In this document: positions 27,359 through 51,218 of the stretch, in pieces
Layout: each line of letters opens with the position of its first letter
How positions within the stretch are numbered: position 1 is the first letter of the stretch
Assembly: GCA_008012315.1 (NCBI GenBank)
Contig: SSEL01000009.1
Span: forward strand, 62,001 to 126,000
From: Rhodospirillaceae bacterium
Lineage (GTDB): Bacteria > Pseudomonadota > Alphaproteobacteria > Dongiales > Dongiaceae
Direction: 5' to 3'
Length of the DNA stretch: 64,000 nt
Translations under genes and position numbers: made by a program
Notes under the pieces: model-generated
What the model saw: the letters and a program-made list of their open reading frames with translations, nothing else
Databases searched by the model: none
Told to the model about the DNA's origin: nothing

Positions 27359-27586
27359 TTACTGGAGGGCGACCGGCGCCATACCGTTTTCCCACACGGC
27401 GGCGACCGCCGCATTGCGATCCGGCATCAAGGCGATCTGCTGGCCGTTCGCCGCATGGATCGCAACTGCCGTGCCGCCATCGACCTCGATCTCTTTCAAA
27501 TAGGCAATGTCCTTCAGGCCGAGGGCCAATAACTCCTGGGCACTGATCTCTCTGATACGCTCGGTCGTCATCATGATATCTACCAT
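27359..27586 (-). CDS. DUF1150 family protein
   Basis: Small acidic protein of 75 residues (69-70 if it starts at the internal Met5 or Met6). It matches the DUF1150 pattern, with the conserved ELLALGLKDIAYLK near residues 18-31 and a C-terminal region containing ALMPDRNAA. DUF1150 genes typically sit directly downstream of an IbpA-type small heat-shock gene in alphaproteobacteria, exactly as here (45 bases after Hsp20). The function is unknown. By context it may be a partner of the small chaperone. Confidence 0.8.
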   Translation of the reverse strand: MVDIMMTTERIREISAQELLALGLKDIAYLKEIEVDGGTAVAIHAANGQQIALMPDRNAAVAAVWENGMAPVALQ

Positions 27587-27631: not shown

Positions 27632-28072
27632 TTAGTCGTGCTGTTCAACCTTCTGCGGATGACCCGCCTTGCGGATCGGCACGCTCTTCACCTGGGAAAT
27701 GACCTTCGGTCGCTTCAGCTCAATCGACAGCAGGCCGTTATCCAGCGTCGCGCCGTCGACCTCGATGCCCTCGGCCAGCACGAAACTGCGCTGGAACTGG
27801 CGGGCGGCGATGCCGCGGTAAAGGTAAATCCGGTCCGGATCATCCTTCTGTTTGCCGCGGACGATGAGCTGGTTGTCTTCCAACTGGATGTCGAGGTCTT
27901 CCAGGGCAAAGCCGGCGACCGCCAGAATGATCCGCAACGTATCGTCGCCGATCTGCTCGATATTGTAGGGCGGGTAACCTTCAGCGCCGGTCTTGGAAAT
28001 CCGGTCCAGGGTCCGTTCGAAGTGATCGAACCCCAGCAGCAGTGGGCTGTTGAATAAGGATAGTCGTGACAT
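27632..28072 (-). CDS. Small heat-shock protein, Hsp20 family (IbpA-like)
   Basis: Alpha-crystallin domain chaperone of 146 residues that holds unfolding proteins during heat stress. The N-terminal segment SRLSLFNSPLLLGFDHFERT resembles IbpA. The alpha-crystallin core is at about residues 35-130 with NGLLSIEL near its end, and the C-terminal I-x-I/V-type motif is less clear (SVPI). ATG at 28072 is preferred over 28099, because it has AGGAGG at a good distance and starts with MSRLSLF. It is preceded by a sigma-32-like promoter and a ROSE-like RNA thermometer. Confidence 0.92.
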   Translation of the reverse strand: MSRLSLFNSPLLLGFDHFERTLDRISKTGAEGYPPYNIEQIGDDTLRIILAVAGFALEDLDIQLEDNQLIVRGKQKDDPDRIYLYRGIAARQFQRSFVLAEGIEVDGATLDNGLLSIELKRPKVISQVKSVPIRKAGHPQKVEQHD

Positions 28073-28077
28073 CTCTG

Positions 28078-28097
28078 GCTCCTCCTGCTGAGCGAGC
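28078..28097 (-). ncRNA. ROSE-like RNA thermometer hairpin (hsp20 5' leader)
   Basis: Read on the minus strand, GCTCGCT (28097-28091) faces AGGAGGAGC (28086-28078). The ROSE signature U-Y-G-C-U (TCGCT) lies opposite the AGGA Shine-Dalgarno with the expected G-G mismatch. The element closes the ribosome-binding site six bases before the start codon. This is a reading of primary sequence and pairing only; temperature response is inferred from the family. Confidence 0.6.
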
Positions 28098-28177
28098 ATC
28101 TAAATTCAGGACATCGACACCCGATTGTCCGGCATGCCGATGCGGCCAGCGGATCGTCCGCAGCGCCTACCCGAAGT

Positions 28178-28205
28178 AGTTAAGATATTTCCCGGCGGAA
28201 TCAAG
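28178..28205 (-). promoter_or_regulatory. Candidate sigma-32 (RpoH) promoter for hsp20
   Basis: CTTG (28205-28202), 17-base spacer, CTTAACT (28184-28178), close to the alphaproteobacterial RpoH pattern CTTG-N17/18-CYTATNT (6 of 7 at the -10). Predicted start near 28170 leaves a leader of about 100 bases, the usual length for a ROSE leader. Confidence 0.55.
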
Positions 28206-30946: not shown

Positions 30947-30980
30947 CGTTGCCACCCGGCTTCGTCATTCTACCGGTGAT

Positions 30981-31027
30981 GGGGATGGGGTTCCCCCGAT
31001 AAACGCCGCAAGGCTGATGACTCCTGC
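30981..31027 (+). ncRNA. Fluoride riboswitch (crcB motif) aptamer
   Basis: The crcB consensus is readable: GGGGATGG and TTCCCCC form P1/P2-type pairing, followed by ATAAACGCC, GCAA, and the highly conserved GGCTGATGACTCCTGCC end (31012-31027). It lies in the leader of a fluoride exporter gene and is followed by a hairpin with a T-run, so transcription termination is the likely output. Binding of fluoride is family knowledge. Confidence 0.92.
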
Positions 31028-31071
31028 CGCATTGTTCATCGCGGCGGGAATCCGTCCGGCTTCCGCCCGAT

Positions 31072-39677: not shown

Positions 39678-39852
39678 CCGCCCCGCTTAACCGCTTTTGG
39701 GAGAGCCTCGGCCCCGAGGGGTCCCGTCCGTCCGCGAGTTTCGCGCACGGGCGCGAAATCCGTTGTCTTCATATGCATGCCTATTGCGGGCGGCGATAAA
39801 TGAAGATGCGGGACCGGGAAACCGTTTTGTAACGACCGGATCGCAACGACGC

Positions 39853-50227: not shown

Positions 50228-50327
50228 CGCGTCCATAGCCCGCAATTTCTTGACTTGGCCCAGCGGGAGACCCACATCTTTTAAGGAAGACACGTGGTTA
50301 CGAGCTTGCCAAAAAGGGGGTCTGCCG

Positions 50328-51218
50328 ATGAGCATCAAGCACATCCTGGTTCCACTCTTGGGTATCGAAACCGATCGATGCGCACTCGATGCGGCATTAG
50401 CCGTCGCGAAAACCTATCAAGCCCATATCCAGGCGCTGCACGTCCTTGCCGATCCTCTGCAATCGACACCGATGTTGGTTGGGGTCGGTTTCGCCATCGC
50501 CGAAGCGGCCGATGTGACCCGCAAGCATAGCGAGGCCCTGGCCAAGACGGCGCGCGCCACGTTCGATAAATGGGTGGTGGATCGCGGCATCACCCTGTCC
50601 GACCAGCCGATCAATCCGGGCGCGGAAGCGGCCGGCGTCACCACGCAATTCATTGCCGAACAGGAACAGGAGCTGATCCGGGATCCGCTCATCATCTATT
50701 CCCGGCTGACTGATCTGATTGTCTTCGCGCGCCCCGATCAGGGAGACGATTTCGCCTTGATGTCGATCCAGCTGGAAGACGTTCTGTTCGCCGCCGGCCG
50801 GCCGGTGCTGCTGGTGCCGAAGAGCATGTCGGAAGCGGCGCTGCAGGCGATCCAGACAGGCACCGCCTTGATTGCCTGGAACGGCAGTATCGAGGCGGTC
50901 CGTGCGGTGCAATCAGCGCTGGACCTGCTGCCCGGCCGGGCCAAGGTGCGTGTCGCCACCGTGCCGGAAGGCGAGCAGGGCAATGCCGCGATGGAGCTGG
51001 TGCGTTATCTCGCTTGGCAGGGCATCGAATCGGCGGCGGCGGAAGTCCCCAAGGAAGGCGGCACGTCGCAGCGCCTGCTGCAGACGGCGGCCGAACAGCA
51101 GGCCGGGTTGCTGGCCATGGGTGCCTATTCGCATGGTCGCTTGCGGCAGATGGTGCTTGGCGGCGTCACGCGCGACATGATCCATCACGCCGGCCTGCCA
51201 GTCTTGCTGGCGCATTGA
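50328..51218 (+). CDS. Universal stress protein (tandem UspA domains)
   Basis: 296 residues made of two UspA-like domains, about 1-155 and 160-296. The first begins MSIKHILVPLLGIETD. The C-terminal half ends with the ATP-binding-type GAYSHGRLRQMVLGGVTRDM and LPVLLAH. Tandem Usp proteins respond to starvation and membrane stress. ATG at 50328 was chosen for its GGGGG-containing site and family start; the frame is open to 50211. Confidence 0.9.
   Translation: MSIKHILVPLLGIETDRCALDAALAVAKTYQAHIQALHVLADPLQSTPMLVGVGFAIAEAADVTRKHSEALAKTARATFDKWVVDRGITLSDQPINPGAEAAGVTTQFIAEQEQELIRDPLIIYSRLTDLIVFARPDQGDDFALMSIQLEDVLFAAGRPVLLVPKSMSEAALQAIQTGTALIAWNGSIEAVRAVQSALDLLPGRAKVRVATVPEGEQGNAAMELVRYLAWQGIESAAAEVPKEGGTSQRLLQTAAEQQAGLLAMGAYSHGRLRQMVLGGVTRDMIHHAGLPVLLAH

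Follow-up and report, generated by a model that had tools for sequence, protein, structure and literature searches.

A probable two-hairpin ROSE-like RNA thermometer upstream of a small heat-shock gene and a larA-family gene in an alphaproteobacterium

We analyzed a 64,000-nucleotide stretch of a Rhodospirillaceae genome (hereafter, the window) and found on its minus strand what is likely a short, two-hairpin, ROSE-like RNA thermometer, lying under a sigma-32 promoter and heading an operon of a small heat-shock protein (sHsp) gene and a larA gene. Read in the direction of the mRNA, a CTTG-N17-CTTAACT element is followed by a leader of about 100 nt, the ATG of an HSP20 gene (28072) and then a DUF1150 gene. 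The sHsp gene (27632..28072, minus strand; protein MSRLSLFNSP...) matches Pfam HSP20 with an E-value of 5.5e-17, and the DUF1150 gene, which encodes a protein of the LarA family (27359..27586, minus strand; Pfam DUF1150, E 1.5e-10), begins 45 bases after the sHsp stop codon.

The Shine-Dalgarno sequence, AGGAGG (28086-28081, minus strand), is part of a hairpin at 28078..28097 on the same strand, here called hairpin 2, which was identified by folding and comparison and has the form GCUC-g-CUC / loop AGCAG / GAGGAGC; four of the six Shine-Dalgarno bases are paired in the stem and two lie in the loop. The ROSE-like motif has been described as a U(U/C)GCU sequence that pairs imperfectly with the Shine-Dalgarno and carries a bulged G (PMC11342760). 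In our leader this sequence is UCGCU, at 28095-28091, and G28093 is bulged in the minimum-energy fold. Going by the motif definition, then, this leader counts as ROSE-like and can be expected to function accordingly. A preliminary description of this DNA had placed TCGCT some 75-100 bases after the promoter and opposite AGGAGGAGC (28086-28078, minus strand), with a G-G mismatch over the Shine-Dalgarno. The distance is correct, with 82 bases between CTTAACT and TCGCT, and so is the opposition over the Shine-Dalgarno, but in place of the G-G mismatch we find G28093 bulged. A strict G28093-G opposition was rejected as secondary structure because the next pair would become C-A; for ROSE-like stems, both a bulge (in a crystal) and a G-G pair (by NMR) have been reported (PMC11342760). 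With the bulge as a correction, the original sequence observation is confirmed.

The sHsp ATG at 28072-28070 lies eight bases 3' of AGGAGG and is the start kept in orthologs. The listed open reading frame opens with another ATG, 28099, which is in frame and located where hairpin 2 has its foot. This is an unlikely start for the sHsp, since both the conserved protein sequence and the Shine-Dalgarno favor 28072; a start called automatically at 28099 would add nine residues to the protein and conceal the thermometer. The candidate leader thus occupies the usual 5' UTR position before a small heat-shock gene, its status as a 5' UTR depending on a presumed transcription start near 28171. Elsewhere in the window, on the plus strand, a fluoride riboswitch (RF01734, 54.9 bits, 30972-31033) lies just 3' of a histidine kinase gene oriented divergently to the sHsp gene, and an ffh sRNA match at 39711-39761 is barely above its cut-off (35.6 versus 35 bits).

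Because Rfam gave no thermometer family above its cut-off, we compared the leader to its relatives. One ortholog search covered 61 genomes, 49 of them with a match, and contributed its best 30 loci; a second, in which 595 stretches were confirmed, contributed the 80 best of these. Removing four duplicates from these 110 loci left 106 leaders, window included, which are the best-scoring ones and so form an uneven sample. U(U/C)GCU starts between positions -45 and -12 in 88 of these 106 distinct orthologous leaders, compared to 7.0% of 5300 dinucleotide shuffles, and the bulged-G fold on the Shine-Dalgarno side is present in 74 of them, again including the window, compared to 0.11% of 5300 dinucleotide shuffles. 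This difference places the leader beyond chance. The motif is missing from 18 of the 106 leaders, and 14 more carry it without the bulged-G fold. We aligned 87 of the 106 with MAFFT (alignment A2), and the bulged position of hairpin 2 is a G in 86 of these 87, a count that is conditioned on motif-based selection, as the 18 leaders without the motif and one other (L064) were excluded.

A second hairpin, hairpin 1, emerged from folding, RNAalifold and covariation at 28111..28143 on the minus strand. It has the form GCAUCGGCAU-g-CCG / CGG-GUGUCGAUGU, with G28133 bulged in U-g-C-C opposite G-G-G, a setting equal to that of hairpin 2, and the bulged position is a G in 84 of the 87 aligned leaders. 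RNAalifold recovered both hairpins unaided from the 87 leaders, leaving open a C-G pair beside the second bulge. For pair statistics we used the RNAalifold structure with that C-G pair and the outermost pairs added, on the alignment that had not been fitted to the structure. Paired cells reached 84.0%, versus 76.3% in shuffled alignments, and the covariation score was 0.290 versus 0.178, a value reached by none of 500 shuffles and falling to at most 0.144 when partners were slid. Both-sided changes occur in eight of nine pairs in hairpin 1 and three of seven in hairpin 2; a slide of +1 yields 12 pairs with such changes versus 11 in register, which counts against the register, and the outermost modelled pairs of the two hairpins are unpaired in 40 and 47 of the 87 leaders. 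In this alignment, G-U pairs make up 126 of about 1144 paired cells, fitting an RNA rather than a DNA palindrome. For the 67 leaders outside the labelled family (the 17 genomes labelled as the window's family, L001-L016 and L024), covariation was 0.328 versus 0.185, in an alignment that was fitted to the structure and whose pair counts therefore favor it. Judged by sequence comparison, the element also includes this upstream hairpin with its bulged G, which refines the preliminary description.

We then asked how well covariance models could locate the leader. Of 41 relatives, 17 had matches (E<=0.1) to a model built with the window included (R1), each immediately 5' of an sHsp match, and at E<=0.005 R1 matched at least 29 of 385 class genomes; 28 of these 29 matches lie directly before an sHsp gene of the window's type, and the 29th is cut by a contig edge. 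The figure of 29 is a lower bound because 12 candidates were scored per genome and the window's own genome was missed. A second, fully independent model (R2) was built from 70 leaders, none of the labelled family, that had been newly aligned with MAFFT; some rows of this alignment had hairpin 1's 3' arm displaced by one column. With R2, the locus is the sole match in its own genome at E<=10, but a weak one (20.5 bits, E 4), and the orthologous leader is detected in 15 of the 17 family genomes, in 10 of them as the top match. A third model (R3) used the 67 of these 70 loci that matched R1, in an R1-guided alignment without rows from the 17 labelled family genomes. The letters were thus held out of R3, but the structure and alignment guide were not, R1 having included the window. 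R3 finds the locus as the sole match at E<=5 in its 5.7-Mb genome (31.1 bits, E 0.0355), with the next site within the window at 12.1 bits, and ranks the orthologous leader first in 14 of 17 family genomes, finding it in 15. One R3 row, L071, falls inside the smallest clade holding L001-L016 in a tree of sHsp proteins and may belong to the same family as the window; all 16 other labelled loci are closer to the window's sHsp protein than any locus used in R3.

By Rfam thresholds the leader is not a member of either of the two ROSE families we considered. The best thermometer family in a scan of the leader, ROSE_3 (RF02523), scored 16.7 bits (E 0.36) against a cut-off of 43, and ROSE (RF00435, cut-off 45 bits) had no match in the leader at E<=10. 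The covariance-model half of the refuting condition set in the preliminary description thus went against the thermometer, with Rfam below threshold, but the site is found by a model built on other leaders (R3). ROSE_3 resembles the leader in that the structure line of the model shows this bulge in the first hairpin, and it was the sole thermometer family matched at E<=0.5 by five of 12 scanned orthologous loci, which were hand-chosen as strong model matches together with two brought in by ROSE_3 itself. The ROSE_3 scores of these loci were all under 43 bits, the best being 39.1. Across the 385 class genomes, ROSE_3 had six matches at E<=0.001, three before a clpB-like gene (by eye), two before this sHsp gene and one before another sHsp gene. 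The three at clpB-like genes are L047, L050 and L052, and one of them is above the cut-off. Inspected by eye, the clpB leaders that could be placed in the window's family (14 in all, L151-L162, L165 and L166) have in common a GCGYGUGCY...GGGCGC-like hairpin, which may contain the same bulged G but lacks the anti-Shine-Dalgarno motif; three of 17 starts could not be placed, and that of L154 is doubtful.

RF00435 describes a 94-position element, unlike this short leader, but loci matching it in the family's genomes have the same anti-Shine-Dalgarno joint (UUgCUC/GAGGA). R3 matches five of the eight RF00435-matched loci given to it at E<=1, with up to 28.1 bits (L034). The latter locus (G008:C1:535552-535625) is a ROSE above the RF00435 cut-off, at 46.5 bits, and what follows it is no sHsp gene but a frame of 68 residues that, by eye, shows no HSP20 features. 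The window's own genome has a below-cut-off RF00435 match (26.2 bits, C45:171936-172032) before another sHsp gene.

The putative sigma-32 (RpoH)-type promoter, at 28178..28205 on the minus strand, was found by direct reading and comparison; CTTG occupies 28205-28202 and, after 17 bases, CTTAACT occupies 28184-28178. The consensus of alphaproteobacterial RpoH promoters has a CTTGA -35 and a spacing of about 17 bases. The -35 and spacing of the candidate fit this type well, but its -10 is a weak match. CTTGA is present in 79 of the 106 best-scoring orthologous upstream regions (-230 to -70), compared to 10% of mononucleotide shuffles, which supports the earlier assignment of CTTG-N17-CTTAACT to RpoH and suggests that RpoH is used at this site. 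We also learned a two-block promoter matrix from 75 loci outside the labelled family, obtaining CTTGAA and CCcATATAT, mostly 17-18 bases apart. With this matrix, the candidate ranks fourth on both strands of the window, among 5829 candidates after a -35 prefilter, with three sites scoring higher. The best match, at 50249-50290 on the plus strand, precedes a frame starting at 50328 that by eye resembles a universal stress protein.

Folding energies lend no support to opening by heat. The leader's folding energy is unremarkable versus shuffles (z -0.19), and single-sequence folding was rejected as evidence. Hairpin 2 alone is predicted at -8.4 kcal/mol, with a median of -9.5 over 88 orthologs, and lies within the range of the anti-Shine-Dalgarno stretches at the eight RF00435-matched loci (-7.5 to -11.2 kcal/mol), seven of which have the same bulge. 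The cost of opening the Shine-Dalgarno in 100 leaders showed no excess over shuffles that kept the Shine-Dalgarno in place (mean z 0.15), and in the window's leader it was below its own shuffles (z -1.48); occlusion of the Shine-Dalgarno was thus rejected as evidence as well. Opening by heat is not seen in the energy model, the probability of an open Shine-Dalgarno being 0.0127 at 20 C and decreasing with temperature, to 0.0039 at 50 C. These nearest-neighbour energies leave aside the non-canonical pairs reported for ROSE. Without the bulged G, opening at 37 C was predicted to cost 8.7 instead of 3.1 kcal/mol, and between 20 and 37 C it became 5.6 to 6.9 kcal/mol costlier, a modelled effect that fits a stem kept weak.

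The second gene may link the leader to protein breakdown. DUF1150 is LarA in Caulobacter, an activator of Lon (PMC10665427). The window's DUF1150 protein ends in APVALQ, with V-A-L-Q in place of the V-x-V-H of LarA; among 100 loci, 53 of the 60 C-termini printed end in H. A DUF1150-like frame, as detected by a profile grown from two window-type sequences, is present within 900 bases of the sHsp gene in 100 of the 106 best-scoring loci. A separate ROSE-like motif before the DUF1150/larA gene is not conserved (six of 100 loci versus 3.5% of shuffles, with starts chosen by a crude rule and some doubtful), and a separate conserved thermometer before larA was rejected. Without such a motif, a translational effect on LarA would need a shared mRNA. 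It is plausible, as first suggested, that the DUF1150 gene shares the heat control at the transcript level, and we infer that the sHsp and larA genes are co-transcribed, with an effect on LarA.

Taken together, these data suggest the following model. At low temperature, the Shine-Dalgarno would be held in the stem of hairpin 2, weakened by one bulged G, with hairpin 1, which has the same bulged-G joint, folded just 5' of it. Heat would increase transcription through RpoH and loosen hairpin 2, allowing the sHsp to be translated, and LarA, made from the same mRNA, would rise along with it. The two layers of heat control first proposed for this small chaperone gene are each supported by conservation among the best-scoring leaders (CTTGA in 79 and the bulged-G hairpin in 74 of 106); on this reading the leader would melt and control translation.

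Other explanations must be weighed against this model. That a C-rich stretch happened to lie beside a strong Shine-Dalgarno and a chance CTTG would be compatible with the Rfam scores below threshold, the fold z of -0.19 and the R2 match at E 4, but it is at odds with the conservation, the covariation and the R3 match; with a model from other leaders ranking the site first in 5.7 Mb, chance is largely refuted and we regard it as extremely improbable. The conserved two-hairpin leader could instead sense another signal, such as a protein, a small RNA or a metabolite, and not temperature itself. Hairpin 1 covaries strongly without contact to the Shine-Dalgarno, and the folding energies predict no melting in the living range, both of which speak for this reading. 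However, the ROSE-like motif has been described as just this combination, U(U/C)GCU opposite the Shine-Dalgarno with one G bulged (PMC11342760), RF00435-matched loci cross-match our model (five of the eight given, at E<=1) and the genes belong to heat-shock families, so that we consider another signal unlikely. We think it slightly less likely still that the RpoH promoter alone provides the heat control, with the hairpins tuning translation or mRNA stability constitutively. The Caulobacter operon is indeed sigma-32 regulated (PMC10665427), and the Shine-Dalgarno is not occluded more than in shuffles, but a constitutive stem would have no need of the destabilizing G that is kept in 84 of 87 leaders in hairpin 1 and, conditioned on the motif, in 86 of 87 in hairpin 2.

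The thermometer reading may extend further. Tentatively, and with more doubt than confidence, we suggest a tandem thermometer with two copies of the bulged-G joint (Y-g-C-Y opposite G-G-R), in which hairpin 1 is itself heat-labile and gates hairpin 2, the thermometer thereby setting both a chaperone and a Lon activator across many families of Alphaproteobacteria. If so, heat would link protein holding and protein breakdown through one mRNA. The aspects that seem fresh are this tandem bulged-G architecture and the putative tie to the Lon activator, in a ROSE-like element that falls below Rfam cut-offs yet recurs before one gene pair in many alphaproteobacterial families. The 87-leader alignment could sharpen the ROSE_3 family.

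Several features of this locus have precedents. In Caulobacter crescentus, the shsp2-larA operon has the same gene order, sHsp followed by DUF1150/LarA, and is under sigma-32 control; LarA control is described there as sigma-32 transcription plus Lon-dependent turnover (PMC10665427). The main text of that paper does not use the words thermometer, translational, post-transcriptional or riboswitch, and none of the titles and abstracts listed by searches of an open library links a thermometer to larA; our leader suggests a post-transcriptional layer in larA control. ROSE-like elements usually precede small heat-shock genes, though no longer exclusively, since ABC transporter genes have been added to their targets (PMC11342760). 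Waldminghaus 2005 reported more than 40 elements of the ROSE type before sHsp genes (cited in PMC4166951), a set that may already include leaders of this type. A close parallel is Pseudomonas ibpA, whose short ROSE-like thermometers form two stem-loops before an sHsp gene, like this leader, and combine sigma-32 transcription with translational control, as we propose here (PMC3669281). The principle of dual control is therefore already known, sigma-32 and a two-hairpin ROSE-like element having been established together in Pseudomonas. The Pseudomonas system differs in belonging to another bacterial class and another sHsp; in the window, the sHsp gene is followed by a larA-family gene.
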